The notes beneath the pieces are model-generated. The model saw only the letters and a list, made by a program, of their open reading frames with translations, had not been told where the DNA came from and did not search any database. Below are positions 9,439 to 41,175 of a DNA stretch of 45,563 bases, piece after piece. This DNA is from a virus. Positions within the stretch are counted from its first letter, which is position 1. Each line of letters starts with the position of its first letter. The DNA lies in the IMG/VR virus record IMGVR_UViG_3300045921_000035, positions 1 to 45,563 of that record. One strand, given 5' to 3'. Made by a program: the position numbers and the translations under genes.

Positions 9439-9474
9439 TTGAGGGGCTGTGTTCTGTCCTGCACAGCCCCTCAA
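9439..9474 (+). terminator. Intrinsic terminator after the capsid gene cluster
   Basis: A perfect 13-bp stem (9439-9451 paired with 9462-9474) has a 10-base loop and a GC-rich centre (GGGGCTGTG / CACAGCCCC), followed by a short TTT. It lies between the decoration gene and the adaptor gene. It probably reduces transcription of the tail genes relative to capsid genes, since no promoter is obvious immediately downstream. Confidence 0.85.
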
Positions 9475-15941: not shown

Positions 15942-17021
15942 ATGACAACTCAACAGAACACAATGCCGATGCGTCGTGGCGGTCGTGTATTCGACACGCC
16001 AGATTGGCTGAGCCCACTGTTGCAACAGATGCAAGCGCAGGAAGATAGTGCTGCTGCTGATGCTGCACAGCAGGCAGTTCTTCGCAATAATGGTGCTCCG
16101 GCTGTTGGGCCGTATGGGCAGGGTTATGCACAGGTGTTGACTAGTCGTGCAGCACAAGGGCCATTCTCAGCCCTTGATGCTGCTGCACTGTTCAATCACA
16201 GTAACGCCGAAGCTCGTGCTATGGCTGAAGCAGCCGCAGCGCAACGTGAGTTGCAGCTTCGCATTAATGATGACAACAACCGCAACCGTCGTCTGATTGC
16301 TGCTTATCCGCAACTAGAAAGCATCTTCCGCACAGGTGTTAAGGTTGATGGTCTTGAAACTGACCCTGTAGTGAATACTGCTTGGCGCGCTCAAGACTAT
16401 GCAGGTAGAAATGCAGACATTCGCAACACTACTGCTGAAACTATTGGAAGGCTCACTGATGCAGGTTTGCCACCTGAACAGGACACGGCAGAGACTTGGC
16501 TGCGCGATGTAAACCAAGCTCCTGACAGCTACGAAGTTACTGACAGTGGCGAAATGGTGCCGAAATGGGCAAGAACGCTGTTTTCAACTTCTAACCGCTA
16601 TTCGCCAGACAACATGGCATCGGTGGAAACGGCCAATATCAATGCCGATGCGACCAAGACTGCTGCTGCCATCAGGGCTGCTAGCAAAGAAGACAATCAG
16701 CCACAAGTAACTGTTCACGTTAGCCCTAGCGGACTTCTTACAGGAACCGACATTAAGGGCGCTCCATCACAAGTCACTCCGTGGCTTACACAACCGGGAC
16801 AGGCGACAAACAATCCCAGTGCTGCATTCCAGCAACCGCTACCAGTGCAGCCAATTCAGATGCAAGGGCCTCGTGCTGCACAAGCATTGAGCATGGCTGT
16901 GCGTGCGAACAAGCTGCCTCCTGACCGCAACAACAGCAACACACGTGTTATGATGGTGCCGGGTAATCCAAATCCAGTCTTTGTTGACGTTGCAACGGGC
17001 TTCATCATTCCTACGCAGTAA
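15942..17021 (+). CDS. Virion protein of unknown function in the ejection cluster
   Basis: This 359-residue protein starts 3 bases after the previous stop. It is Ala/Gln/Asn/Arg-rich. An N-terminal region with helical repeats (LLQQMQAQEDSAAADAAQQA, ALFNHSNAEARAMAEAAAAQRELQ in two pieces) leads to a probably helical middle and a Pro/Gln-rich linker near 280-310. The last 40 residues look folded (TRVMMVPGNPNPVFVDVATGFIIPTQ in part). It has no membrane segment or signal peptide. Its position between two ejection-type genes suggests it is packaged in the capsid or ejected. The family is not recognised. Confidence 0.6.
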   Translation: MTTQQNTMPMRRGGRVFDTPDWLSPLLQQMQAQEDSAAADAAQQAVLRNNGAPAVGPYGQGYAQVLTSRAAQGPFSALDAAALFNHSNAEARAMAEAAAAQRELQLRINDDNNRNRRLIAAYPQLESIFRTGVKVDGLETDPVVNTAWRAQDYAGRNADIRNTTAETIGRLTDAGLPPEQDTAETWLRDVNQAPDSYEVTDSGEMVPKWARTLFSTSNRYSPDNMASVETANINADATKTAAAIRAASKEDNQPQVTVHVSPSGLLTGTDIKGAPSQVTPWLTQPGQATNNPSAAFQQPLPVQPIQMQGPRAAQALSMAVRANKLPPDRNNSNTRVMMVPGNPNPVFVDVATGFIIPTQ

Positions 17022-26888: not shown

Positions 26889-27087
26889 TGAATTGCCTCT
26901 CCAGTCTTTCGAGAGTTGCAACATCACGGTCACGCAAACGGTTGAGACGCGCAGCATCATCAACGGCCCGCGAGGCCCATTCAATAATCCCTTGTTCGTT
27001 GTGGAGCAGTGCCGTGGTCAACACACGACCAAATGCATCAATCTGCTTTTGCGTCAGGAACGAAAGTCCCAAGAGCTTCTGCAACAT
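26839..27087 (-). CDS. Small helical protein, unknown
   Basis: This 82-residue protein is placed at the ATG at 27087, which has GAGAGG 9 bases upstream; a longer frame begins with TTG far inside the preceding gene. The sequence is helical and charged (LTQKQIDAFGRVLTTALL, RDRDVATLERLERQFNG) with no recognised motif. It overlaps the upstream gene (27038-27328) and the start of the helicase gene by 50 bases each, so expression is tightly coupled. It may assist the helicase or regulate it, but this is inferred from position only. Confidence 0.6.
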   Translation of the reverse strand: MLQKLLGLSFLTQKQIDAFGRVLTTALLHNEQGIIEWASRAVDDAARLNRLRDRDVATLERLERQFNGSEYYNLPRSGAVTA

Positions 27088-27328
27088 GTTCCTTATCCTC
27101 TCCAACAATCTTTGCTGCGACGTAGAAGCAGCACCAACGTCCAAATGAACTTTTGCTTATGCCAAGTGCAGCACAGGCTTGCTCAATTATCTCCATCTCT
27201 TGCTTAGATGTGAAGATTTTGAAGTTGGTGTTGAACTTGTTAACAGCGTAGATACCTCTAGAGCGGGGAATGTGCGATGGACGCGGTATTGTCACAGTCA
27301 GTAGTTGGTAAACTGTGTCATCTATCAC
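27038..27328 (-). CDS. Small protein with helical C-terminal half, possible DNA-binding
   Basis: This 96-residue protein uses GTG at 27328, chosen because GGAG lies 7 bases upstream, while a TTG at 27343 lacks one. Residues about 40-75 (FTSKQEMEIIEQACAALGIS, then KSSFGRWCCFYVAAKIV) have the helix-turn-helix rhythm of ribbon-helix-helix or sigma-like small proteins. The N-terminal part is short strands. It is the first gene after the hairpin region at 27343-27391 and precedes the helicase operon. A DNA-binding regulatory role is possible but unproven. Confidence 0.6.
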   Translation of the reverse strand: MIDDTVYQLLTVTIPRPSHIPRSRGIYAVNKFNTNFKIFTSKQEMEIIEQACAALGISKSSFGRWCCFYVAAKIVGEDKEHVAEALGTFVPDAKAD

Positions 27329-27342
27329 GTCATTGCTCCACA

Positions 27343-27391
27343 ACTACAAGGTTGTTAGGAGTTGTAGTTCTGTCCAACCACAACTCCTAAC
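27343..27391 (-). promoter_or_regulatory. Alternative hairpins before the helicase operon (attenuator-like)
   Basis: On the minus strand a 12-bp perfect inverted repeat pairs 27380-27391 with 27354-27365 (loop 14). A second 7-bp repeat pairs 27362-27368 with 27343-27349. The two use overlapping bases and cannot form together. The second lies just upstream of the GGAG of the 27328 gene. There is no T tract, so a simple terminator is less likely than attenuation, RNA processing or translation control. Confidence 0.55.
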
Positions 27392-27401
27392 ATCTCCGCC
27401 G

Positions 27402-27659
27402 TTACGCAGCAGGAGCAGCAGGCTTGCGCGCCGGAGCAGGCGGCAGGTCAATCTTGATAACCGCTCCGGTCACGGAACCGGCAGTAACCAGTTCCAGCAG
27501 CTTGCCAGTATCGCGCTCAACCTTCAACTCCACATCTTCCTTGCTGAAGTTGAGATAGCCGCCATTGCCATCCTTGATGCGAAGCACGCCATACAGCGGC
27601 TTGGCGGTGCGAGTGAAAGAGGCACGCTTGCGGGTAGTTTCGGTCTTGGCTTCGGCCAT
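27402..27659 (-). CDS. Small basic protein with Ala/Pro-rich tail, unknown
   Basis: This 85-residue protein is placed at the second ATG (27659) because AAAGGA lies 6-7 bases before it; an ATG at 27677 has a poor site. It is basic at the N-terminus (TTRKRASFTRTAKPLYGVLRI in part). A small beta core follows (DGNGGYLNFSKEDVELKVERD), and it ends in a Pro/Ala tail. Codon use is GC-rich compared with its neighbours, suggesting high expression. A sigma70-like promoter with a 17-bp spacer lies upstream (27713-27741). It sits between the DUF669-like gene and the helicase genes. A nucleic-acid-binding accessory role is possible. Confidence 0.68.
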   Translation of the reverse strand: MAEAKTETTRKRASFTRTAKPLYGVLRIKDGNGGYLNFSKEDVELKVERDTGKLLELVTAGSVTGAVIKIDLPPAPARKPAAPAA

Positions 27660-27712
27660 TGCTCTGTCCTTTTTCATAGGTCTAAGTCGTTCCCCTCATT
27701 GGGAACACCTGA

Positions 27713-27741
27713 TTTATACTAAAGAGGCAGATTGCCGTCAA
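27713..27741 (-). promoter_or_regulatory. Sigma70-like promoter, minus strand
   Basis: On the minus strand TTGACG (27736-27741) and TATAAA (27713-27718) are separated by 17 bp, predicting a start near 27706. It would drive the 27402-27659 gene and perhaps the helicase, kinase and polymerase genes beyond. It lacks the TTGACATA extension and the TG before -10 seen in the other early promoters, so it may be regulated differently. Confidence 0.75.
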
Positions 27742-27760
27742 TAGCAAAGTGCCTCTTTAG
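27719..27760. repeat. 11-bp inverted repeat around the promoter
   Basis: CTAAAGAGGCA (27719-27729) is the exact reverse complement of 27750-27760, with 20 bases between. One arm abuts the -10 box and the other lies upstream of the -35 box. It lies just after the stop of the DUF669-like gene, so it could act as that gene's terminator hairpin, as an operator, or both. Confidence 0.7.
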
Positions 27761-27778
27761 CATCACATCATGCGCTTT

Positions 27779-28318
27779 TTACGGCGCAAGCACGCGGTCG
27801 ATTTCCGAGCGGGCTTCACCCTCCCACTCGCCAATCTTGACGCTGACGGTGGCGGTGAGGCCCACCCAGTCGTTAACGTCAATCTGCGAACCCATCTTGG
27901 CACCGATAGCCTCGCAGAACTTGCGGATGCGGTGACGGTCTTTCACCGTATCTTCGAGCACAAGCCGGTTGAACACCAGCGTCATGCCGTCCGGGTCGCC
28001 ATCGGTGAAGTCAGCGGGATACTGGTCAGAGGGAATGTAGAAGGTAATCGCAGCATACTTGTTACCCTTCTGCGAAACCTTCACATCCACTGCACGGATT
28101 TCCGCCGTGTATTCACCCGCAGGAAGCGGGGCCGGAGCCTCTGCATTGGCGATATTCTCCGAGAAAGTAAGAATGCTCTCACTCATCTTCTGTCCTTCGT
28201 TTGTTGCAACAAGAGGCTTGGTTGAAACAGGTGCAGCCGCCTCACATACTGCACTGCTATCCTTGGCGTTATTGCCTTTGGATTTCTTATTGCGGGATAG
28301 GGATTTTGTTGAAGCCAT
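27779..28318 (-). CDS. DUF669-like recombination accessory protein
   Basis: This protein has up to 179 residues from the ATG at 28318. A second ATG at 28186 (MSESILTF) has a better AAGGA site 6-7 bases upstream and would give 135 residues. The N-terminal 44 residues are Lys/Ser/Ala-rich and probably disordered. The core (LPAGEYTAEIRAVDVKVSQKGN, ITFYIPSD, FCEAIGAKMGSQIDVNDWVGLTA in part) resembles DUF669, an OB-like family found beside phage annealing proteins. The Sak4-like ATPase gene is immediately upstream and overlaps it by 32 bases. It probably binds single-stranded DNA during replication or recombination. Codons are GC-rich, indicating strong expression. Confidence 0.72.
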   Translation of the reverse strand: MASTKSLSRNKKSKGNNAKDSSAVCEAAAPVSTKPLVATNEGQKMSESILTFSENIANAEAPAPLPAGEYTAEIRAVDVKVSQKGNKYAAITFYIPSDQYPADFTDGDPDGMTLVFNRLVLEDTVKDRHRIRKFCEAIGAKMGSQIDVNDWVGLTATVSVKIGEWEGEARSEIDRVLAP

Positions 28319-31326: not shown

Positions 31327-31529
31327 GTGTTATCCTTGATTGGTAAAAGAAACCTTCCCTGATGAATAACATTCATCCGCATCAGGGAACTACAGCCGGA
31401 TTGGCGTGTGCAGTGCACCTGTTATTGCTGTCATGACGTGCGTTGGTGAAGCACTGGTAGGTTTAGTGCTGTCCGAAAGGCAAGACACATGTTATGCTTA
31501 AACACAACACGCTCACCCGCACAGTCATG
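31327..31529 (-). other. Non-coding gap of about 200 bp with terminator, no clear promoter
   Basis: No gene fits here. The gap holds the hairpin at 31355-31389 and a stretch of unmatched sequence. No TTGACA/TATAAT pair is visible on the minus strand, so the downstream operon may use an unrecognised promoter or read-through. A short non-coding RNA cannot be excluded. Confidence 0.5.
31355..31389 (-). terminator. Intrinsic terminator (minus strand)
   Basis: A perfect 10-bp stem pairs CATCAGGGAA (31380-31389) with 31355-31364 around a 15-base loop. On the minus strand it is followed within a few bases by a pyrimidine run containing TTTCTTTT. It lies after the 31530-32187 genes and before the nuclease operon, so it separates two early transcription units. 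Confidence 0.75.
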
Positions 31530-31967: not shown

Positions 31968-32187
31968 TGGCTCCGTCCTTTCGTGTGTCTGGATGCAAAC
32001 GCTTGTAGTCAGCGATTGCATTCACAATCTGTGTTTGCTGTTGCAGCAGCATATCCATCACGGCTTGATGCCCGCTCAACTGGCTCAGTCGTTTGGATAA
32101 GATGACAAGTTCCGCGGTGACAGCAACTTTTTCGTCATCGTAGATATTGCCATCACTATCTACGAATGCAGTAATCTGCTTAATCAT
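31954..32187 (-). CDS. Small helical protein, unknown
   Basis: This 77-residue protein starts at an ATG that overlaps the stop of the 32187-32516 gene by one base and overlaps the next gene by 14 bases. It begins with a short strand (MIKQITAFVDSDGNIYDDEK) and continues as one long helix with Gln-rich repeats (DMLLQQQTQIVNAI). It has no motif and is part of a three-gene early operon. Confidence 0.62.
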   Translation of the reverse strand: MIKQITAFVDSDGNIYDDEKVAVTAELVILSKRLSQLSGHQAVMDMLLQQQTQIVNAIADYKRLHPDTRKDGANERD

Positions 32188-32516
32188 CAGTCAACCTCGT
32201 CTGATGAAACAGCAGATGCATCAATGATTTGGGGGACTGTCTCGTGCGACAAGGACAGTGGCACGTCAACGCTATCAGGTGTTGATGTTGCGACTTGGAA
32301 CATCTGCACAAACTTTTCCAGTGCATCCCTCATTGTCGTGCCTTTGGCCTCGATGCGTGTCGGATGGTAACACTCAATACACCATGACACTTTTACATCA
32401 CTGCTGATGAACGTCTGTTCCGCGCGCGCGTGAATGTAGATGCTGTAATCCATGTTGCCTGTGCGCTCACGCAGTTCGGCAATCGCTTCGGCAAACTCGT
32501 TCGGCTTGGTAAACAT
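32187..32516 (-). CDS. Early protein, unknown, first gene of operon
   Basis: This 109-residue protein starts at the ATG at 32516, with AAAGGTGGA 5-6 bases upstream; an upstream extension would overlap the promoter. It has a helical N-terminus (EFAEAIAELRERTG), a short beta segment (YSIYIHARAEQTFISSD, VSWCIECYH) and a Ser/Asp-rich tail. It has no recognised family. It follows the promoter at 32570-32598 by about 50 bases. Confidence 0.66.
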   Translation of the reverse strand: MFTKPNEFAEAIAELRERTGNMDYSIYIHARAEQTFISSDVKVSWCIECYHPTRIEAKGTTMRDALEKFVQMFQVATSTPDSVDVPLSLSHETVPQIIDASAVSSDEVD

Positions 32517-32569
32517 ATGTTCCACCTTTCTGCTTGTTTTGTAATGACGCCTTTCGCCATTACACTTAT

Positions 32570-32598
32570 ACCATAGCACAAAACACATGCTATGTCAA
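32570..32598 (-). promoter_or_regulatory. Early promoter, minus strand, with overlapping inverted repeat
   Basis: TTGACA (32593-32598), 17-bp spacer, TATGGT (32570-32575), with TG in the extended -10 position and the early TTGACATA form. The 7-bp inverted repeat CATAGCA (32572-32578) / TGCTATG (32588-32594) overlaps both boxes. Start near 32563. It drives the 32187-32516 gene and those beyond. Confidence 0.82.
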
Positions 32599-32608
32599 GT
32601 TGACACTA

Positions 32609-33028
32609 CTAGTGCACTACTGCTGACTGCGGAACAACACCCCATTCTTCCAACATCAAACTGGTAACACGCAGCAGCAACTGACCAACCTCAAGCAAAC
32701 ACTTGGAGCAATACACATTCTGTGGATGGCCAAACTCGTCGTCCTCGTCATCAGCATCCAACAAGAACCTCACGAAATGTGCCATAATTACGCGGTCAGT
32801 GTCGCTAATGCCAAGCTTGCTGTCACCAAAGCACAGCATCAGCAACACGTGACAGCCATCAAACAAGATGCTTCTTGCGCTGTGCCGGATAACAGTTCGA
32901 GCACTGTTGCACTCCGAGTTCTCAAACTTAGCAAGCTTTTGGCACAAAGAGATGGCCGCTTGGTGCGTGAGCATGAGTATCTCGACGTAATCATCGCGCC
33001 AAGGTGTTGTCCACTTAAGACTGGTCAT
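32609..33028 (-). CDS. Early protein, unknown, with CxxC
   Basis: This 139-residue protein is placed at the ATG at 33028 (33031 also possible), with AGAGG 6 bases upstream. It is largely helical with many Cys. A VYCSKCLLEVG segment (CxxC) near residue 110 and an acidic DADDEDDEFGH stretch are notable. It may bind a metal. It overlaps the HNH gene by 14 bases, so it is co-transcribed with it and lies just before the promoter at 32570. The family is not recognised. Confidence 0.62.
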   Translation of the reverse strand: MTSLKWTTPWRDDYVEILMLTHQAAISLCQKLAKFENSECNSARTVIRHSARSILFDGCHVLLMLCFGDSKLGISDTDRVIMAHFVRFLLDADDEDDEFGHPQNVYCSKCLLEVGQLLLRVTSLMLEEWGVVPQSAVVH

Positions 33029-33482
33029 CATCCACCTCTCTGTATTTCTTGCCTTGCACAATCTCAGTTACGGTGCTTCGACCAAGACCATACAACTTGG
33101 CAATGTGTTCGTGAGTATTGTTTGGGTCTTTCGCTAGTTTGCGAATTGCTCGCACTGTGTGATGCGGCAAGCCGTGTCGCTCTCTGTCACGCATATCCTT
33201 CATGTTCTCAACATGCGTTCCAATCTCGCCATGCTCAGGATTGCAGCATATTGGATTGTCACACTTGTGTCGAAACACGTCTGTGCGCTCAAGCTTTACA
33301 CCTTTGACCAGTTCATACACCAAGCGGTATGCCAGCACGTTCTTGCCTGCAAGCCTGAAATACGGACGGCCATTGCTTGACAATGCAGATGTGAACGGCC
33401 AGCATCGAGTGCCAAGCCGTTCACACATTGGCCCTGTTAGCATATTGATGTGCTTGAACACATCAGTAGGCTGATTAGCCAC
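33015..33482 (-). CDS. HNH homing-type endonuclease
   Basis: This 155-residue protein uses GTG with GGAG 7 bases upstream. FRHKCDNPICCNPEHGEIGTH (residues 70-90, in part) is the HNH_3-like core, with His72, Asn81 and His84 as expected. The C-terminal HTVRAIRKLAKDPNNTHEHIAKLYGLGRSTV is a helix-turn-helix like those of NUMOD-type homing nucleases. Such genes are usually free-standing selfish elements that cut phage DNA. Here the gene overlaps its neighbours by a few bases on both sides, so it is not simply inserted in a gap. An active enzyme is likely from the intact motif. Confidence 0.88.
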   Translation of the reverse strand: MANQPTDVFKHINMLTGPMCERLGTRCWPFTSALSSNGRPYFRLAGKNVLAYRLVYELVKGVKLERTDVFRHKCDNPICCNPEHGEIGTHVENMKDMRDRERHGLPHHTVRAIRKLAKDPNNTHEHIAKLYGLGRSTVTEIVQGKKYREVDDDQS

Positions 33483-33654
33483 GCTTTAACTCCGGCTCTA
33501 GAACACTTGCCATGTGGTCTAGAAGATACTTGGCGTAGTCGGTGAGCAGTATTCGGTCTCCAAACTCAAACTGCTCCTGTTCTAAAATTACTGCGTTGTT
33601 ATACGCATTGCAAAGCAGTTCATACTGCTCCATTGTGTATTGCTTGTTATCCAT
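33475..33654 (-). CDS. Small early protein (59 residues), unknown
   Basis: This reading frame begins at the ATG at 33654 inside the end of the upstream membrane protein gene and ends at the TAA at 33475, overlapping the HNH GTG by 8 bases. The product begins MDNKQYTMEQYELLCNAYNN, carries an ILEQEQFEFGDRILL segment, and ends in HMASVLEPELKRG. It is helical and acidic. Gene overlaps on both sides and the lack of other coding potential here support it. The function is unknown. Confidence 0.62.
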   Translation of the reverse strand: MDNKQYTMEQYELLCNAYNNAVILEQEQFEFGDRILLTDYAKYLLDHMASVLEPELKRG

Positions 33655-33835
33655 AGAACTTCATGCTCCAATCAATTGCCAAGCTTATCAAAGCCATTGC
33701 AGTCGCACCATAGATGAAGCCTGCTCGACGGCCTTCACGGTAGCTCTTTGCAATCTGCTCAGCAGTGCTTAATGCCTGTTTGGATGCGTTAGCATCAACA
33801 AGCCTGCGCGGCAAAGGCATGGGGTCTTTGCTCAC
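33647..33835 (-). CDS. Small single-pass membrane protein
   Basis: This 62-residue protein uses GTG at 33835 with AGGA 5 bases and GGGAG 10 bases upstream; a longer TTG frame lies inside the next gene. One hydrophobic helix (GFIYGATAMALISLAIDW, residues about 39-56) follows a basic helical N-terminus (SYREGRRA). It has no recognised motif. It is part of the same operon as the 33843-34409 gene. A host membrane target is possible. Confidence 0.66.
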   Translation of the reverse strand: MSKDPMPLPRRLVDANASKQALSTAEQIAKSYREGRRAGFIYGATAMALISLAIDWSMKFYG

Positions 33836-33842
33836 TGTTTTC

Positions 33843-34409
33843 CTACTCCCTTTCTTTCTTCCATGCAATAACAGCCTGACGCAATTCGTCAATGTTTACA
33901 CCCTCACGGTCAACCATGTCTTCGGCTTCTTGACATGCCTCTTCAAACTGCTCAGGAGTGCAGCCCAGCCATGCAGCAGTGTGTTGCTTGAATGCAGTAG
34001 TTTCCTCTTCATTCAGGTGCCAGTAGATGGAAACAGCCAGAACGTTGGCGGCAATTTCTAGCACGTTTGCCAGCAGGTCATCTTTCAAGCCTTCTGAAAG
34101 CTCTTTGCCAGTTCGACTGTCAACAGGCACAGCATCAACAATTATTTCCGTATGCGAGAAGTCACCATCGACAGGTCGCAGTCGCATCTTCTGGATTTCA
34201 ACATAGTCAACGGAAGTTGTGGAGCGAATGCCAAGAATTGCGCATACAATGCTGTGCATCTTGTTGTGTGAACCAGCCGTAACACGTGTCATCCAATGCA
34301 CGGAATGTATGTCATTGGCAATACGCTCAAAGATTTCTATCATCTTCTTCTCGCTTTGCCAGGTCAGCAGTTCCTCAGGAACAACATTCAGGTTAGCGGT
34401 GCTGCTCAT
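33843..34409 (-). CDS. Acidic early protein, unknown
   Basis: This 188-residue protein has an ATG at 34409. Acidic overall, it has helices (SEKKMIEIFERIANDIHSVHWMTR), a central beta segment (VDYVEIQKMRLRPVDGDFSHTEIIVDAVPVD in part) and a C-terminal helical region (QEAEDMVDREGVNIDELRQAV). It has no membrane segment or catalytic motif. It lies between the 34412 gene and the small membrane protein gene in a continuous early operon. The family is not recognised. Confidence 0.65.
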   Translation of the reverse strand: MSSTANLNVVPEELLTWQSEKKMIEIFERIANDIHSVHWMTRVTAGSHNKMHSIVCAILGIRSTTSVDYVEIQKMRLRPVDGDFSHTEIIVDAVPVDSRTGKELSEGLKDDLLANVLEIAANVLAVSIYWHLNEEETTAFKQHTAAWLGCTPEQFEEACQEAEDMVDREGVNIDELRQAVIAWKKERE

Positions 34410-34411
34410 TG

Positions 34412-34645
34412 TTATTCATCCTTCTTGTATGTTGGGGCGATGCACACAATGTCATCAGGTGTGCCATCACGATAGGTTGTCACTCGCTCAATCCTGCCAT
34501 CACTATACAACAGCAGCATTGTGCCATATTCCCAATCAGCAGTATGAAGCCAAAGTCTCCACACCCCTCCGGGCAAGAAGTCAATGGCTCCATTCTGCAA
34601 TCTTGTTTGGGATAGCTTAGTCCTTGTCAGTCGAAGCATTGGCAT
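34412..34645 (-). CDS. Small early protein, unknown
   Basis: This protein has about 77 residues from the ATG at 34645; an alternative ATG lies at 34639. Its binding site is weak, and it overlaps the upstream gene by 29 bases. The core (WRLWLHTADWEYGTMLLLYSDGRIERVTTY) is strongly beta and Trp/Tyr-rich, like many compact small phage proteins. It has no recognised motif. Operon position suggests coupled translation with 34617-35075. Confidence 0.58.
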   Translation of the reverse strand: MPMLRLTRTKLSQTRLQNGAIDFLPGGVWRLWLHTADWEYGTMLLLYSDGRIERVTTYRDGTPDDIVCIAPTYKKDE

Positions 34646-35075
34646 TCTTCTGCAAAGCCCGATAAATGGACGCAATCTGGTCTTGGAGTTTTGAAAACTC
34701 ATGTTGCGTCTCGTTTGCGACTTCTTCGATTTGTTGTGAAGTCAGCAAACCTTCGTGCAGCGCACCAGCCATTGCACCTGCTATGACACGCCGAACCAAT
34801 TGTGTCAGGCCCAGCGTCATGAAGGAAAACATATAATTTATTGGATTGAGGATTTGCTGCTGCTGCTCCGTCAAGTCATCTTTGCAGGTTTCAAACAGCA
34901 TCGACTGAACACGGTTCATTTGTTGAGCGTGCTCATATATCTTGTCAACAAGATGTTCGTGAGCGCCTTCAAACGCAGCACGAAACACAACAGGCAAGTC
35001 TTCTGCTGATGTCTTCCCGAATGACGGCTCAACATGACGCATGTTATCAGCGTCAAACATCTTCTTGAAGTTCAT
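34617..35075 (-). CDS. Helical early protein, unknown
   Basis: This 152-residue protein is placed at the ATG at 35075 with AAGGA 8 bases upstream. It is nearly all helical: HEHLVDKIYEHAQQMNRVQS, a Gln-rich LTEQQQQILN, a hydrophobic Ala/Met stretch MFSFMTLGLTQLVRRVIAGAMAGAL, and a final coiled coil. The hydrophobic stretch could be membrane-associated. It is the first gene after the promoter at 35122-35150, so strong early expression is expected. The family is not recognised. Confidence 0.66.
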   Translation of the reverse strand: MNFKKMFDADNMRHVEPSFGKTSAEDLPVVFRAAFEGAHEHLVDKIYEHAQQMNRVQSMLFETCKDDLTEQQQQILNPINYMFSFMTLGLTQLVRRVIAGAMAGALHEGLLTSQQIEEVANETQHEFSKLQDQIASIYRALQKNANASTDKD

Positions 35076-35111
35076 TGTTCCAGTCCTTTCTGCTAGGTCA
35101 GTATTCCCAAC

Positions 35112-35149
35112 TGACATAGACAGCATAGCATAACTAGCTGTCTATGTCA
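35112..35149. repeat. 13-bp inverted repeat overlapping an early promoter
   Basis: TGACATAGACAGC (35112-35124) is the exact reverse complement of 35137-35149, with a 12-base spacer. It covers most of the -35 and the -10 of the promoter at 35122-35150. It could be an operator site for a dimeric repressor or form a hairpin at the promoter. Confidence 0.8.
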
Positions 35150-35150
35150 A
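35122..35150 (-). promoter_or_regulatory. Early promoter, minus strand
   Basis: TTGACA (35145-35150), 17-bp spacer and TATGCT (35122-35127), with TTGACATA and the TG-n extended -10. Start near 35115. It would serve 34617-35075 and downstream early genes. Confidence 0.82.
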
Positions 35151-35164
35151 ATTGGCAACACGCA

Positions 35165-35638
35165 TTACGAAGCCACAACATGGCCACTTTCGATAAGTGC
35201 CTTGTCGATTTCTTCCAAGGCAGACACGTCAAGACCATTCTTCTTGGCAAGTTCAAGAAGCGCAGCCTCTTCTAACTTGTTACGAAGTTCGGTCACAATC
35301 TTCTTGCGCTTTTTCACAAGAGCATCGTGCTTCTTGCGAGCCTCTTCGCGAACACGACTAGCAGCCACAGAGATGTGGGCCAGCGGATACTTGAAGTTTG
35401 CAAACCTCGAAGCATCACCGTGCAGTTCTTCACTCTTGACAACCATTGCAATGGTCATCGAGTTATACTCGTTCGACACCAATACGTAGTCGCCCTTTTC
35501 GGGAGCATTGCCGCGCCACAGATAATCATACTCATTGTAGCTGCTGCTCTTGAAAACAACAGTTACTCTGTGAACCTGCTCATTGCTCTTGTCGAGCAAG
35601 AACACTTCAATGTCATCAACCGTATATACCTTATTCAT
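35165..35638 (-). CDS. Early protein with C-terminal basic coiled coil, unknown
   Basis: This 157-residue protein is placed at the ATG at 35638 with AAGGA 8 bases upstream. The N-terminal 85 residues are beta-rich (VYTVDDIEVFLLDKS, YVLVSNEYNSMTIAMVV). From residue about 95 there is a long basic helix (RVREEARKKHDALVKKRKKIVTEL, split) and an Ala/Leu/Glu coiled coil to the end. This looks like a beta module joined to a dimerisation arm. It ends just before the promoter/operator region. The family is not recognised. Confidence 0.65.
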   Translation of the reverse strand: MNKVYTVDDIEVFLLDKSNEQVHRVTVVFKSSSYNEYDYLWRGNAPEKGDYVLVSNEYNSMTIAMVVKSEELHGDASRFANFKYPLAHISVAASRVREEARKKHDALVKKRKKIVTELRNKLEEAALLELAKKNGLDVSALEEIDKALIESGHVVAS

Positions 35639-36185
35639 TGTTTTGTTCCTTTCCTTCCAAGATGCGCCTCTCTGCATCGAGGTCACGATTGACAGCCCTA
35701 TCTGCATCAAAAGCAGGGCCGTAACGCTTTTCGAGTTTGGCATCATTGATTGCCATAAGCTCGTGCAAGTTGGTTCCCATTGCTTCGGCTCCTAACGTGA
35801 GATACCAAAGAATGTCACCAAGTTCTTCCTTGATGTTCACTTCATCAAGACGCTCGTTCATGTCGAACTCGACCAGATGCGCGCGGATAAGCTCGCCAAC
35901 CTCTGTTGCAAGGCCGAGCACGCTGTGCAACAAATGCACACGATGCGACGGCATGATAGGCAACGGGCTTTCTTCACACGCTGTATCATATGCTATCTGG
36001 TCGCTTACTTTGCTGAACTCAGGCTTTTTGCCATAGAAGATTGCTCGCTTTGGCCTGTCCAGCAACTCAAGGACATTGGCTGCGCGATACAAATCAGCAA
36101 TCATGCGATTGACTGGTGTATTGCCATGGTGTGTGTTAGCTGGAACACGCGCCATGACGCGAGCTTGATACTCGTGAGCGTCCAT
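35631..36185 (-). CDS. MazG-like nucleotide pyrophosphohydrolase
   Basis: This 184-residue protein carries the all-alpha NTP-PPase motif pair: GLATEVGELIRAH (Glu95 and Glu98) and EELGDILWYLTLGAEAMG (Glu120/121 and Asp124). These residues bind Mg for pyrophosphate hydrolysis. Phage MazG-like enzymes are proposed to lower ppGpp or clean odd dNTPs during infection. The N-terminal 85 residues are a helical extension of unknown role. It lies in the early arm before the 36192 gene, with GGAG upstream of its ATG. Confidence 0.82.
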   Translation of the reverse strand: MDAHEYQARVMARVPANTHHGNTPVNRMIADLYRAANVLELLDRPKRAIFYGKKPEFSKVSDQIAYDTACEESPLPIMPSHRVHLLHSVLGLATEVGELIRAHLVEFDMNERLDEVNIKEELGDILWYLTLGAEAMGTNLHELMAINDAKLEKRYGPAFDADRAVNRDLDAERRILEGKEQNNE

Positions 36186-36191
36186 CTTGTG

Positions 36192-36584
36192 TTATTCTCC
36201 GTTGAGAAGTTGGTTCAACATTGGCGTGGAGGCTGTCACAATGACAATCACGCCAACAAGAAACTCAGTTGCTGGTAGATGCTCCCATGCGGTTGCCCAA
36301 AACCTTGTTGCTCTGGGATTTTTTGGCAAAGCCAACAGCTTGCCGTCTTCATTCCCAAATGCAAGACACGGGCTGCTGCCATATGTTTTGAAATGGGGAA
36401 TGACTTCAACATAACCGCCAACAAGTGTTTGGATATCATCCAATGTCAGCTTGTTGCGGCGGTCATGGCGGATTGGTGTGTTTGGAGGAACAATAATCAA
36501 CCCGTATTTTCCATCGTTTTCAGGGAATACAGGTCGTCCCCCGATATTCTCTCTTTGCCGGCGTTTGTTGTATGGTCTTACCAT
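36192..36584 (-). CDS. DUF3846-like early protein
   Basis: This 130-residue protein has GGAG 6 bases upstream of its ATG. The core (TLVGGYVEVIPHFKTYGS, then FGNEDGKLLALPKNPRATRFW) has the GG-Y-x-E-V and N-E-D-G-K pattern of the DUF3846 family. The function is unknown; many phages and plasmids carry this family near small regulatory genes. A hydrophobic C-terminal segment (FLVGVIVIVTAS) may be a membrane or core strand. The N-terminus is basic. It forms one operon with its small neighbours. Confidence 0.7.
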   Translation of the reverse strand: MVRPYNKRRQRENIGGRPVFPENDGKYGLIIVPPNTPIRHDRRNKLTLDDIQTLVGGYVEVIPHFKTYGSSPCLAFGNEDGKLLALPKNPRATRFWATAWEHLPATEFLVGVIVIVTASTPMLNQLLNGE

Positions 36585-36595
36585 GAATTACTCCA

Positions 36596-36808
36596 TCAAG
36601 AGGAGTTGTGTGGGTCTTGCTTGTCAAGTTTTGCTGACAAGCTGCTGCTAGGCCAGTAATTCGGACACTCTGGCCCAACAGGGCTTTGACCATCACGCAA
36701 CCAGAACGATTGGCGATGCGTGTTAGGCTTCGTGCCACTGTCTGAGTGTCGATAACACTTGTTGCTTACACAACAGTTGTCTGCGAGACACATCATAATG
36801 TCCGGCAT
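36596..36808 (-). CDS. Small Cys-rich protein (putative zinc-binding)
   Basis: This 70-residue protein starts at an ATG that overlaps the stop of the upstream gene (TGATG), with GAGGA 7 bases upstream. Its pattern, MMCLADNCCVSNKCYRHSDS, then PECPNYWP, resembles small phage proteins with a C-x-x-N-x-C...C-Y-R and a later Cys-x-Y-F/W, likely zinc-binding. No catalytic motif is seen. Its position is between the DUF3846-like and the 36808-37206 genes. Confidence 0.72.
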   Translation of the reverse strand: MPDIMMCLADNCCVSNKCYRHSDSGTKPNTHRQSFWLRDGQSPVGPECPNYWPSSSLSAKLDKQDPHNSS

Positions 36809-37206
36809 CAGTCCATCCTCGACACTTCAAACTCTTTGGTATCGGGATTGTAGATGTTGACCCATGCACTTTGATACACAAGCACACGTTGGGGATAGAC
36901 GATGAGTTCATCACTTTCCCCATTGACGCGGCTTTGCAAGCGCATTTCAACAAGAGGCATTAGCTTGCGGTCGCCGGGATACACGATTGACAGGTCATCA
37001 AAGTTCATGTTCCATTCTGTCATTGGGCTCCAATAGCCGTAGCCATCTGCAAGCTGCTGTGCAATTGGCTTTCCATTGTTGCTCAAGAACTGTGGGATGA
37101 CACCCACCACATCTAGCCAATCCCATCCAAACTTTTCCAAGTTCTCGGTGAATTGGTAGATTATGACACCACGCATCGTGATGCCCACAAGAGTTGGCTC
37201 GGTCAT
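36808..37206 (-). CDS. Early protein, unknown
   Basis: This 132-residue protein has AAAGGA 8 bases upstream of its ATG at 37206. It is beta-rich (VGITMRGVIIYQFTENLEKF, ELIVYPQRVLVYQSAWVNIYNPD) with Trp/Tyr throughout and no membrane segment. The overall pattern suggests a compact mixed-fold protein. It overlaps the start of the Cys-rich gene and the end of the zinc-ribbon gene by one base each. The family is not recognised. Confidence 0.66.
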   Translation of the reverse strand: MTEPTLVGITMRGVIIYQFTENLEKFGWDWLDVVGVIPQFLSNNGKPIAQQLADGYGYWSPMTEWNMNFDDLSIVYPGDRKLMPLVEMRLQSRVNGESDELIVYPQRVLVYQSAWVNIYNPDTKEFEVSRMD

Positions 37207-37409
37207 TATCTGTTTCCTTTGTGGCTATACGGATTGACAACTTGCTCTCTGCTAGTTGCAATCACGTAATTGGATTTTGGCACTGGCACGATAGTAAACA
37301 CACGTTTGGCAGCGCCATGACGCAAACACGTGTTATAGCCTAGTGCAACGCGGCGAGGGTCAATCCAGTCGCCGCACACGGTGCACCACGTGTCAACTGC
37401 ACACGACAC
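37206..37409 (-). CDS. Zinc-ribbon (TraR/DksA-like) small protein
   Basis: This 67-residue protein starts at a GTG inside the end of the upstream gene; no clear binding site is visible, so coupled translation is likely. CTVCGDWIDPRRVALGYNTC (residues about 9-28) has the C-x2-C...C-x2-H pattern and the I-x-x-x-R-x-x-x-L-G-Y motif of TraR/DksA zinc fingers. These bind RNA polymerase or act as simple zinc ribbons. An early role in modulating host transcription is possible. Confidence 0.7.
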   Translation of the reverse strand: MSCAVDTWCTVCGDWIDPRRVALGYNTCLRHGAAKRVFTIVPVPKSNYVIATSREQVVNPYSHKGNR

Positions 37410-37605
37410 GACGCATCAATCCAGAACGCACGACAGTGTTGTCATGCCGGTGCACAGTAACAATCCAGTTGTTACCCAACAGTTGTTCCAATTCTTCAGC
37501 ACGCGCGATAGCTTCACTCTCACGAATGTTGTAATAGCCACTCGTGTTAAGAGTGATGCCCATATGATGGCGATGACGCACCACAATCTCGAAATGCACA
37601 CTCAT
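37393..37605 (-). CDS. Small early protein, unknown
   Basis: This 70-residue protein is placed at the ATG at 37605 with GGAG 8 bases upstream. It is basic and His/Arg-rich at the N-terminus (IVVRHRHHMGITLN), with a helix near 30-45 (ESEAIARAEELEQLLG) and a short beta end (WIVTVHRHDNTVVRS). No motif was recognised. Its end overlaps the GTG of the zinc-ribbon gene. Confidence 0.64.
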   Translation of the reverse strand: MSVHFEIVVRHRHHMGITLNTSGYYNIRESEAIARAEELEQLLGNNWIVTVHRHDNTVVRSGLMRRVVCS

Positions 37606-37624
37606 TGCCTTTCTCCAGATATGA

Positions 37625-37654
37625 CAACAGGCGGGTTTCCTTGCCCGCCTGTTG
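37625..37654 (-). terminator. Intergenic GC-rich hairpin
   Basis: A perfect 11-bp stem (CAACAGGCGGG, 37625-37635, with 37644-37654) has an 8-base loop and lies between two early genes. There is no T tract on the minus strand side, so it may be a weak terminator, a processing site or an RNA stabiliser. Confidence 0.5.
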
Positions 37655-37664
37655 ATAGGTTGAA

Positions 37665-37841
37665 CTACATAGCACGATATACTTGGGAGGCAATGCGCCC
37701 CAGTATATACGCGACTACGGCACTGAAACACGCAATAAGGAACTTGCCAGCAATAGCCGCGGCAATCATGCCAGCTAATGCAAACAAGAACCAGAAAGAC
37801 AGGATGCAGAAAGCGACAAACAGGCTGCCATGCATGGTCAT
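37665..37841 (-). CDS. Small membrane protein, two predicted segments
   Basis: This 58-residue protein is placed at the ATG at 37841, with GAGGGG 6-7 bases upstream. It contains hydrophobic runs GSLFVAFCILSFWFLFALAGMI and KFLIACFSAVVAYILG, with a short polar C-terminus. It is the first gene after the promoter at 37884-37912, so it is expressed early. Early phage membrane proteins often block superinfection or affect host membrane systems; the function here is unknown. Confidence 0.72.
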   Translation of the reverse strand: MTMHGSLFVAFCILSFWFLFALAGMIAAAIAGKFLIACFSAVVAYILGRIASQVYRAM

Positions 37842-37871
37842 AGTATTCCCCTCACACACATGCGCCCCGTC

Positions 37872-37895
37872 TTGTGTTATATGTATATAACACAA
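37872..37895. repeat. 10-bp inverted repeat centred on an early -10 box
   Basis: TTGTGTTATA (37872-37881) pairs exactly with 37886-37895 around a 4-base centre. It covers the -10 element TATATA (37884-37889). It is another operator-like repeat associated with the early promoters. Confidence 0.78.
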
Positions 37896-37912
37896 AACAG
37901 GGGCTATGTCAA
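37884..37912 (-). promoter_or_regulatory. Early promoter, minus strand
   Basis: TTGACA (37907-37912), 17-bp spacer, TATATA (37884-37889), TTGACATA form and TG-n before the -10. Start near 37877. It serves the membrane protein gene 37665-37841 and the following genes. Confidence 0.83.
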
Positions 37913-37930
37913 ATTGCTGTGTTGACTGTG

Positions 37931-38125
37931 TTAGCGAGGGCAAAACATGCCAACGCGCTTGGAAGGCGAAGCGTTTTCGTAACGCTCTCTTGCGCGTGCG
38001 GCGCGCACATGCTTGCTGACGTGATTGATAGGATGGATGCTGCTGTGCACAACACCTCTGCTGTCAGAAAAGTTGCGCTCCCAGCGTGCCGGCGCAGCGT
38101 TGCCATCATGTTGCCACTTGTTCAC
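37931..38125 (-). CDS. Small basic early protein, unknown
   Basis: This 64-residue protein uses GTG with AAGGAG 7 bases upstream, one of the best binding sites in this arm. It is basic and Arg/Asn/Ser-rich (WERNFSDSRG, HVRAARARERYENAS) with no hydrophobic core strong enough for a large fold. The segment may be helical and bind nucleic acid. It ends just before the promoter at 37907. The family is not recognised. Confidence 0.66.
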   Translation of the reverse strand: MNKWQHDGNAAPARWERNFSDSRGVVHSSIHPINHVSKHVRAARARERYENASPSKRVGMFCPR

Positions 38126-38194
38126 TGTTTTGCTCCTTGTATCAGATAGTTGTTGATGGAATTGGGCAGTTTATTGTGTTGCCCAGCACAGCGC

Positions 38195-38506
38195 TCAAGC
38201 AGTGGGAAGCTTGAACGGTTCAACACCTAACTCTTCCCACGTGGAGGGTTCGTTTGCTTCGATGTTGAATGCCTGATTGACGCTTTCCTCGTCACTATCA
38301 TCATAACGGATGATAACAGCCGGATACTCGCCAAAGTCATGAACTTCGCGCCGCACAACAATGTTAATCTTGTCATGCGGGAACTTCTTTTTCAGCGCGG
38401 CGATGTAGTAGAGAGCTTCTTGCCGCATCTCACCATAGGAATGCAGTCCGAGTTGCAAGCCGGGCTCTTCAGCAGGCGTTGTGCTGATGTAAACATAGTC
38501 TATCAT
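38195..38506 (-). CDS. Acidic early protein, unknown
   Basis: This 103-residue protein is preceded by AAGGAGG and ATAACAC directly before the ATG. It is mixed alpha/beta: an N-terminal strand (MIDYVYIST), a helix (EALYYIAALKKKF) and strands (KINIVVRREVHDFG, YPAVIIRYDDSDEES). The fold pattern suggests a compact ferredoxin-like protein. A small hairpin lies near its end. It is third in the operon led by the promoter at 38885. Confidence 0.68.
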   Translation of the reverse strand: MIDYVYISTTPAEEPGLQLGLHSYGEMRQEALYYIAALKKKFPHDKINIVVRREVHDFGEYPAVIIRYDDSDEESVNQAFNIEANEPSTWEELGVEPFKLPTA

Positions 38507-39109: not shown

Positions 39110-39142
39110 AAAAAAAAAGCGCCGCACCCGAAGGTGCGACGC
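39110..39142 (-). terminator. Strong intrinsic terminator of the 39157-40044 gene
   Basis: On the minus strand a 10-bp GC-rich stem (39133-39142 with 39119-39128, one G-T pair) has a TTCG tetraloop and is followed by nine T residues (39110-39118 as A on the plus strand). This is a textbook rho-independent terminator immediately downstream of the gene, so most transcripts from the promoter at 40095 stop here. Confidence 0.93.
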
Positions 39143-39156
39143 TCTCTTGTGTTGTG

Positions 39157-40044
39157 TTACGCGTTCTTGCTCTCGCTGCTGGAAAGCGGGTCAGCCGCGA
39201 AGTAAGCCGCAAGCTGTTCGGAAAGCCGGAACATGCTGGCGCGAAGCTCGGACGTGAAGGCAATAGGGCTCTCATCACTGCTGTTGATTGCCGCCAGCAT
39301 ATCGGCAGCAAACGTGATGGACTGAGCAAAGGCAATGCCCTTGTCATCGGCGCTGGTAACACGCGTTGCGCGCTGCTTCATGGTAAGCAGCCCATTGTCA
39401 ACAGCCGCGCCCTTGAGCAACGCAATCGCTTCAGTCTGGCCGGGAAGCTTTCCATAAAACGGATGCTCTTTCCCGTTGCACACAACAATTTGATTGGATA
39501 GCCGGCGCAATGCTTCGGCTTCGGTGATTTCTTCACCCTGTAAGCCAGCGCTGGCAATGGCCGCTTCAACAGCCTTGCGACCGCGTGGCGTCAATTCGCC
39601 CTTGTCATTCTTGAAATTGACAACAAGCGGCAGCGGAAGCTTCACTTCATTGTTGCTGTTCACCGATGCGCCACCCACAACGCCGGCTTGGATTGCGAGC
39701 GCCGCACCATAGCAGCGAGAAAACCCCTGCTTGACGGCATTCGTCACGCTCTCGCCTGTTGCCGAAAAGACGGCTTCAAGGATGGCAGCAAGGCGCGCGC
39801 TCTTGCACCGACTGTCAACAGTCACGCCGTCCGACTGGCGCGGGTCAATCGCATAATCGCGCAGAGTGAAGGTATCGGTGACACTGCCGCCCTTGCCTTC
39901 GATGATGGCAGTGATTGGCTTGCTCCAGTCATACGCAAGCAGGGTGCGCAGCGCGATAGCATCACCCTTGCCCTTCAGTTCGTGCGCACCGTTCCAAGCC
40001 TTGATGGCTTCAAAACCGGGATTGGCGTTGCTCTTGTTGCTCAT
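39157..40044 (-). CDS. Abundant early protein, unknown
   Basis: This 295-residue protein has GAAGGA upstream of its ATG. It is the first gene of the early arm, with its own promoter and strong terminator, and is the most GC-rich and C-ending in codon use of all early genes, so it is probably made in large amounts. The sequence is mixed alpha/beta and soluble: ITAIIEGKGGSVTDTFTLRDY, a helical EALRRLSNQIVVCNG region, and a Ser-rich acidic tail (DPLSSSESKNA). No known anti-restriction, DNA-binding or host-takeover motif was recognised. Possible roles include binding host proteins or DNA. Confidence 0.7.
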   Translation of the reverse strand: MSNKSNANPGFEAIKAWNGAHELKGKGDAIALRTLLAYDWSKPITAIIEGKGGSVTDTFTLRDYAIDPRQSDGVTVDSRCKSARLAAILEAVFSATGESVTNAVKQGFSRCYGAALAIQAGVVGGASVNSNNEVKLPLPLVVNFKNDKGELTPRGRKAVEAAIASAGLQGEEITEAEALRRLSNQIVVCNGKEHPFYGKLPGQTEAIALLKGAAVDNGLLTMKQRATRVTSADDKGIAFAQSITFAADMLAAINSSDESPIAFTSELRASMFRLSEQLAAYFAADPLSSSESKNA

Positions 40045-40874: not shown

Positions 40875-40901
40875 GTAACAGGCAATAATTTGATACAAGA
40901 G

Positions 40902-40935
40902 AAGGGCAGCTACAGTGATGTAGTTGCCCTTTTTT
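40902..40935 (+). terminator. Strong intrinsic terminator after the single-gene unit
   Basis: A 13-bp stem (40902-40914 with 40919-40931, one G-T pair) with a GTGA loop is followed by six T residues (40930-40935). It is a canonical rho-independent terminator and ends transcription of 40530-40874 before the late arm. Confidence 0.93.
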
Positions 40936-40992
40936 GTGTCTGTGTAACACGTGTTTTGAAATTGGGTAGGTGAGTAGATGGCTGTGAATGGC

Positions 40993-41001
40993 TGTGGATA
41001 A
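40993..41001. promoter_or_regulatory. Consensus DnaA box
   Basis: TGTGGATAA is the exact reverse complement of the E. coli DnaA box TTATCCACA. It lies in the non-coding stretch between the terminator at 40902 and the promoter at 41036. Only this single perfect copy was noticed, so a host-dependent origin is only a suggestion. Confidence 0.45.
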
Positions 41002-41035
41002 GGTGGTGGGCGGCCCTTCGGCCCGCCCTAGGGGG

Positions 41036-41064
41036 TTGACATAGCCGCGCGGACGTGTTATGTG
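41036..41064 (+). promoter_or_regulatory. Late promoter, plus strand
   Basis: TTGACA (41036-41041), 17-bp spacer, TATGTG (41059-41064), with the TTGACATA form and a TG-n before the -10, as in the early promoters. Start near 41071. A GC-rich hairpin lies just before it (41010-41030). It would drive the late arm beginning at 41196. Confidence 0.75.
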
Positions 41065-41120
41065 TAGCCCCGATGACCGTTGCCCGGAAAAATGTGCTTG
41101 CGTGTCGGTGCGGGTGATGG

Positions 41121-41175
41121 CATACATATAATATATACATGTATATATGTATATGCATGTATATGTATAACTACA
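41121..41175. repeat. AT-rich alternating palindromic stretch in the late leader
   Basis: The sequence alternates A/T with ATATACATGTATAT (14-bp perfect palindrome) and further TATATGTATATG-type repeats, lying between the late promoter and its first gene. It would form hairpins in the mRNA leader or act as an easily melted region. Confidence 0.65.

Follow-up and report, generated by a model that had tools for sequence, protein, structure and literature searches.

Inverted repeats at early promoters of an uncultured phage: probable gene-end RNA hairpins interlaced with the promoter of the next operon

The leftward early promoters of the virus record IMGVR_UViG_3300045921_000035 (IMG/VR; positions 1 to 45,563, here called the window) are overlapped by inverted repeats at 27.7 kb, 32572, 35112 and 37858. 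Comparison across related phages supports well the conclusion that the repeat at 27.7 kb, at the boundary between a single-strand DNA binding protein (SSB)-like gene and the replication operon, is selected as a single-stranded hairpin of mRNA sense, most simply as RNA. The repeats at 35112, 37858 and 27.7 kb are probably gene-end RNA hairpins, each interlaced with the promoter of the operon that follows. A preliminary description had placed four inverted repeats correctly in the window and proposed for them either dimeric regulator binding or hairpins; the hairpins have stood, at 27.7 kb on the strength of conserved structure, sequence turnover and a G-U bias, while the operators have not. The elements at the 27.7-kb boundary are the following.

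27716..27763, minus strand: gene-end hairpin at the SSB/replication-operon boundary; folding energy (dG) -26.6, reverse complement -22.6, shuffle z -7.7.
27713..27741, minus strand: replication-operon promoter, TTGACG (27736-27741), 17 nt, TATAAA (27713-27718).
27779..28318, minus strand: SSB-like gene upstream of the hairpin; match to PHROG 378 single-strand DNA binding protein, E 8e-8.

The hairpin is formed by arms at 27750-27763 and 27716-27729 around an inner stem and includes a perfect 11-bp core (CTAAAGAGGCA at 27719-27729 and TGCCTCTTTAG at 27750-27760); the gap as a whole folds to -41.5 kcal/mol as sense RNA versus -34.5 kcal/mol as its reverse complement. This repeat had been described as flanking 27713-27741. 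It is present, but the arrangement is not one of simple flanking: one arm takes up the -35/-10 spacer, the other is found immediately upstream of the -35, and the -35 box itself is in the loop.

A search of IMG/VR yielded the syntenic relatives G001, G002 and G007 and about 80 exonuclease-encoding loci, and the gap after the SSB-like gene was compared in 53 de-duplicated loci, 46 with a promoter and 7 without. Relatives detected overall number roughly 330. At this place (TTGNNN-17-TANNNT) a promoter scores at least 9.5 in 33 of the 53 loci versus 2.4 in shuffled sequence, with a spacer of 17 in 31 of 38. The stretch upstream of the -35 pairs with the spacer at a score of at least 12 in 33 of the 46 promoter loci, versus 2.3 expected when halves are swapped between phages, and stems scoring at least 20 occur in 12 of the 46 versus 0.0 with swapped halves. 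Counting stems anywhere between the stop codon and the -10, 41 of the 46 promoter loci have a hairpin, versus 2 of the 7 promoter-less loci (the latter counted by eye; Fisher P 0.0015). The arm sequences are entirely different between phages and the pairing is maintained, with loops of 4-23 nt. More specifically, the arms AGGCATGGTGCAT/ATGCACCATGCCT in G002, TAAAGGGCCAC/GTGGCCCTTTA in G007 and GTAGCACACAT/ATGTGTGCTAC in L092, and a 16-bp stem including three G-U pairs in L045, all bracket a TTG box located 16-18 nt upstream of the -10. Among seven phages with an identical register, both sides of the pairs change and stay paired (75 Watson-Crick, 18 G-U, 5 broken). Compensatory change at an orthologous position, the mark of a conserved RNA hairpin, is thus found both with the swapped halves and in the register table.

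The asymmetry of the mismatches is revealing of the strand involved. Although G-U and A-C were penalised equally in the scoring of stems, the 27.7-kb stems hold them at 48:6, versus 1.27:1 in chance stems from swapped halves (P 1.8e-7); G-U predominates in 23 individual loci and A-C in 0, and outside the promoter boxes the ratio is 38:5. The sense strand folds better in 40 of the 45 loci that differ (means -26.5 versus -20.2 kcal/mol; Wilcoxon P 2.9e-8). G-U is therefore tolerated on the transcript strand, the bias expected of a conserved RNA hairpin, and the preference for G-U over A-C argues that the selected unit is a single-stranded, mRNA-sense hairpin and not a DNA dyad. Neither a duplex operator nor a cruciform would show a preferred strand, and both are disfavoured for that reason, cruciform DNA also by loops of up to 23 nt. 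Because transcription of the upstream operon runs into the site, RNA is a simpler reading than single-stranded DNA of that sense.

The hairpin is placed with respect to both its neighbours. Its left arm starts a median 11 nt past the stop codon, and its apex is at most 5 nt from the centre of the -35 in 24 of 38 loci (15 when permuted, P 0.0002). Base composition over the 8 nt that follow the stem is 37% T, 26% C and 12% G. In one clade (L105, L108 and L111) the same promoter is immediately preceded by a U-tailed terminator hairpin. From 12822 onwards in L105 and from 4253 onwards in L108, the U-tract of this true terminator pairs with the spacer of the next promoter (ATTTTTCTC...GAGAAAAAT), and the -35 is therefore again in a loop.

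The promoters themselves are of host type. A strong promoter common in the relatives reads a(c/t)TTGAC(a/t)TA(a/g)(g/c)(c/a)-N7-TGTG(c/g)TATAAT with a spacer of 17 bp; the pattern TTGACNTA-N14..16-TA...[TA] occurs 85 times versus 22 in reversed sequence, and a position-weight version 137 times versus 6. Sigma-70 type boxes (TTGACA/TATAAT, 17-bp spacer) thus stand above background, and a generic sigma-70 scan of the region found 16 promoter-like sites versus 15.0 in shuffles, which is no excess. The TA that follows the -35 at positions 7-8 (T in 45 of 56, A in 51 of 56) is no search artefact, because it is kept when only TTG and the -10 side are fixed. The statement that each repeat is partly built from TTGACATAG is true and trivial, since TTGACATAG is the extended -35 of the promoter across the whole phage family. 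The consensus is also mildly symmetric, TA(A/G)GCAC-N7-GTGCTA with its centre in the spacer (13 seen versus 8.35 swapped, arms of at least 5, z 2.1).

The repeats farther upstream in the window, and the promoters that they overlap, are the following.

35112..35149, minus strand: perfect 13+13 inverted repeat with a 12-nt spacer; gap dG -38.9, reverse complement -29.0 kcal/mol.
35122..35150, minus strand: promoter TTGACA-17-TATGCT, overlapping the 13-bp repeat.
35093..35119, minus strand: possible 5'-end hairpin (CTATGTCAGT/ACTGACCTAG) of RNA started at 35122-35150, weak on its own.
37858..37909, minus strand: 25+25 imperfect (80%) palindrome with a perfect 11+11 core at 37872-37895, 2 nt between; RNA dG -28.9, reverse complement -25.0.
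37884..37912, minus strand: promoter TTGACA-17-TATATA, overlapping the palindrome.
32572..32594, minus strand: 7+7 repeat CATAGCA/TGCTATG, largely a by-product of the promoter consensus.
32570..32598, minus strand: promoter TTGACA-17-TATGGT.
32540..32564, minus strand: 5' untranslated region hairpin TGTAATGGCG/CGTCATTACA, beginning near the expected transcription start; dG -12.0, z -6.4.

In read-through RNA the 35112 hairpin is lengthened by G-U pairs. The bases at 35122 can pair either upstream, in the read-through RNA, or downstream, in RNA started there, and because the two pairings use the same bases the structures are mutually exclusive. The repeat at 37872-37895 is there as described, with arms of 11 bp and not 10, as the core of the larger palindrome; its gap folds to -32.5 kcal/mol in the sense direction versus -27.9 kcal/mol for the reverse complement. 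All four gaps, at 35112, 37858, 32572 and 27.7 kb, fold better as sense RNA.

Chance was gauged by shuffling 68 family promoters everywhere except in their boxes. For each arm length from 11 to 13 bp this gives an expectation of no more than about 0.02, and the repeats of 13 bp at 35112 and 11 bp at 37872 exceed chance; 7-bp arms were seen 4 times versus 3.0 expected. Over all 68 strict and 112 broader family promoters, dyads are only slightly in excess whatever their centre, the two strongest outliers being the window repeats at 35112 and 37858, and no dominant dyad shared across the 112 promoters was found. The repeats at 35112 and 37858 would, by analogy, be elements of the same kind as that at 27.7 kb. 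The repeat at 32572 does not exceed chance and is largely a product of the consensus: it belongs to the dyads of centre 16, which arise because the flanks TA(A/G)GCA on the left and TGCTA on the right are partly complementary, and with arms at chance frequency it needs no other explanation. Its promoter has counterparts at matching distance upstream of the exonuclease in G001, G002, G007 and L033.

Hairpins at gene ends are common in the window: of its 10 early gaps that reach 30 nt or more, 8 have one in or across the gap, some without a promoter. Those that lie apart from the promoters considered above include the following.

39113..39148, minus strand: hairpin and T-run after gene 39157-40044, an ordinary intrinsic terminator and a contrast case.
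37625..37654, minus strand: gene-end hairpin without promoter overlap.
31355..31389, minus strand: gene-gap hairpin without promoter overlap.
27353..27392, minus strand: gene-end hairpin after gene 27402-27677, without promoter overlap; the strongest stem found in the genome.

A loop motif containing GGAC recurs in gene-end hairpins (GGACAG, AGGACG, CAGGACAGAA, CAGGACGGTGTA, CGAGGACCAGA), at comparable places in the window (27353-27392 and 9439-9474), G002 (16953-16992 and 36668-36701) and G001 (27277-27311), and is a possible RNA motif.

In the proposed mechanism, the hairpin would sit just after the upstream gene in the read-through transcript, intertwined with the host-type promoter that drives the following operon, and the same DNA would serve both as an mRNA 3'-end or terminator-like hairpin and as a promoter. 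The placement of the arms at 27.7 kb relieves the promoter boxes of any need to pair. RNA of the exonuclease-Sak4-SSB operon would carry the hairpin, and RNA from the downstream promoter would be free of it. The hairpin would most likely define or protect the 3' end of the upstream mRNA, through trimming to a stable hairpin after Rho-type release or through weak intrinsic termination, and the same site would restart transcription. Hairpins that lack a U-tract and are followed by G-poor sequence are typical of Rho-released, trimmed 3' ends (PMC13289151), and after release at a terminator polymerase is able to start again from promoters close by (PMC6978380), which would make an arrangement of hairpin and promoter useful.

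Several observations weigh against this account. A canonical intrinsic terminator at the SSB boundary was rejected, there being no U-tract after the stem (37% T in 8 nt), and the hairpin is registered more tightly on the -35 than a plain 3'-end element requires. In L105 another hairpin brackets the -35 though a terminator is already there. The 46 promoter loci are related phages and so do not represent 46 independent origins, and the early genes behind the 35112 and 37858 repeats (34617-35075 and 37665-37841) have no orthologues in the family loci searched.

The main rival holds that the hairpin, formed in the nascent read-through RNA or in displaced non-template DNA, acts on the promoter itself, by preventing polymerase stalling or backtracking, by preventing an R-loop or by switching the promoter upon transcription of the upstream operon. 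It is retained because the hairpin is registered on the -35, the apex being centred there more often than when permuted; hairpin and promoter are, moreover, present or absent together, and L105 has a -35-bracketing stem beside its separate terminator. However, other promoters of the same phages, probably also read through, are without the hairpin (112 promoters), and the spacer and the stretch upstream of the -35 are simply where two arms find room; action on the promoter is considered rather unlikely. A similarly modest chance is given to a promoter-embedded RNA switch, conserved in structure and free in sequence: a hairpin registered on the -35, formed by the read-through transcript (or by the displaced coding strand), would control the promoter beneath; if real, it would couple the replication operon to transcription of the recombination/SSB operon in a large uncultured phage family. 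Less probable again is an operator, that is, a dimeric regulator of phage or host that represses the early promoters by binding the repeats as DNA duplexes. The dyads do overlap the -10 and -35 in the manner of operators, those of 13 and 11 bp are above chance, the family consensus has its mild symmetry in the spacer (z 2.1), and downstream of the 27.7-kb site lies a gene for a possible ribbon-helix-helix protein. Yet no half-site or spacing is common to the repeats (CATAG/CTATG lie 13 nt apart at 32572, and the arms at 35112, 37872 and 27719 bear no relation to one another), the sequence at 27.7 kb has turned over wholesale with loops of 4-23 nt, and the 48 G-U to 6 A-C asymmetry is unexpected of a duplex site, at which mismatches would be strand-symmetric. 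The comparison with related phages that had been put forward as a check goes against operators as well: the repeats are absent at those orthologous places where a comparison was possible, and the 27.7-kb arms differ wholly in sequence and in loop length. The candidate protein does not track the hairpin.

A single operator shared across the window promoters was rejected, as the four sites all differ in their arms, spacing and register; the 35112 and 37872 repeats are unlike each other in all three respects and were not found at the relatives' promoters, in the orthologous places that could be compared. Two further explanations are very improbable. The 37872 palindrome could be a pseudo-symmetric bidirectional promoter, with an extended -10 on both strands and divergent transcription: TGTGTTATAT does occur on both strands at 37872-37895, and such promoters are described for E. 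coli (PMC12825309), but the other strand has no -35-like box at the right distance, no rightward gene is present at 37872, and 35112 and 27.7 kb would be left unexplained. Chance repeats at A+T-rich promoters, for which the prospects are just as slight, account for the 7-bp repeat at 32572 and are refuted for 27.7 kb, 35112 and 37858 by the shuffle and swapped-half tests.

The protein considered in connection with operators is the following.

27038-27343, minus strand: small conserved protein; weak NikA-like ribbon-helix-helix match, E 0.0046.

It is encoded in the replication operon of many relatives and is a candidate regulator; the preliminary description had already named it among the early proteins to try. 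Autoregulation by it was rejected, the protein being detected, with limited sensitivity, in 16 of the 46 promoter loci and 1 of the 7 without a promoter.

A gene-end hairpin interlaced with a promoter has partial parallels in known systems. The frd and ampC operons of E. coli overlap, with terminator and promoter sharing DNA; there as here the end signal of one operon and the promoter of the next lie in the same DNA, whereas the phage arms lie around and between the -35 and -10, lack a U-tract and recur family-wide with complete sequence turnover. The promoters of the phage N4 virion RNA polymerase are hairpins with conserved sequence, short stems and 3-nt loops. They too place a hairpin at a promoter, but are read by the virion polymerase, while the promoter here is of host sigma-70 type. 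Canonical intrinsic terminators share the GC-rich stem after a stop codon, and a true U-tailed one occupies the same boundary in one relative clade; the U-tract is missing in most members here. Trimmed Rho-dependent 3' ends (PMC13289151) likewise have a stem lacking a U-tract after the stop codon and G-poor sequence next, with the difference that the phage hairpin is interlaced with a promoter. The extended start-associated sequences (ESAS) of Cluster K mycobacteriophages have a consensus within a genome and lie next to translation starts (PMC3203893); they are also phage inverted repeats, with spacers that vary, found upstream of some genes only and retained where those genes have orthologues, whereas the present family keeps only the pairing and has the repeat on the promoter boxes. 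No description of the hairpin-promoter arrangement was found in the literature searched, most subscription papers being outside the reach of that search.

Inverted repeats that overlap promoters are routinely annotated as operators. At 27.7 kb the comparative data show one such repeat to be selected as a single-stranded structure, its sequence free and the -35 and -10 of the interlaced promoter left unpaired. If confirmed, this would be a warning for operator prediction and a compact design in which the same ~50 bp hold a promoter together with the end of an mRNA, and it raises the question of whether the hairpin merely ends the upstream message or governs the promoter too.

The 45.6-kb record has a nearly perfect terminal repeat of ~228 bp (1 mismatch). 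Its rightward genes encode terminase and structural proteins, and its leftward genes primase/helicase-like, DNA polymerase, kinase, RecD-like helicase, SSB-like, Sak4-like and nuclease proteins. By megablast, neither a named phage nor a near-identical relative matched the early region at the DNA level, and the exonuclease matched none by tblastn; none of the bacterial genomes searched for relatives matched, and a link to a prophage or host could not be made. An Rfam 15 scan of the whole window gave nothing above the gathering threshold. Like the two genes behind the 35112 and 37858 repeats, their neighbours 35165-35638, 37931-38125, 38195-38506 and 32187-32516 lack detectable relatives among the family loci that were searched, and these genes within 32187-38506 are, by that measure, lineage-specific early genes. 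The region 40900-41170, between the leftward and rightward operons, contains the promoter TTGACA-17-TATGTG, which points rightward at 41036, and at 41131-41166 a near-palindrome rich in A+T; it is a possible control or origin region.

Hairpins also occur at the other end of the transcripts. Beginning at about the expected transcription start after family promoters, they score at least 10 in 35 cases versus 6.3 swapped, and at least 12 in 20 versus 1.1. They span +1 to about +28, for example at 32540-32564 in the window, 7920 in L033 and 28473 in G007, as if the transcripts of the family began with a protective stem-loop. At L069 8687, L105 7261 and L111 2304, a strong hairpin (e.g. AGGCATCGTTAC-GAAA-GTAACGATGCCT) comes no more than a few bases after a consensus promoter, possibly giving very short early RNAs or attenuators.

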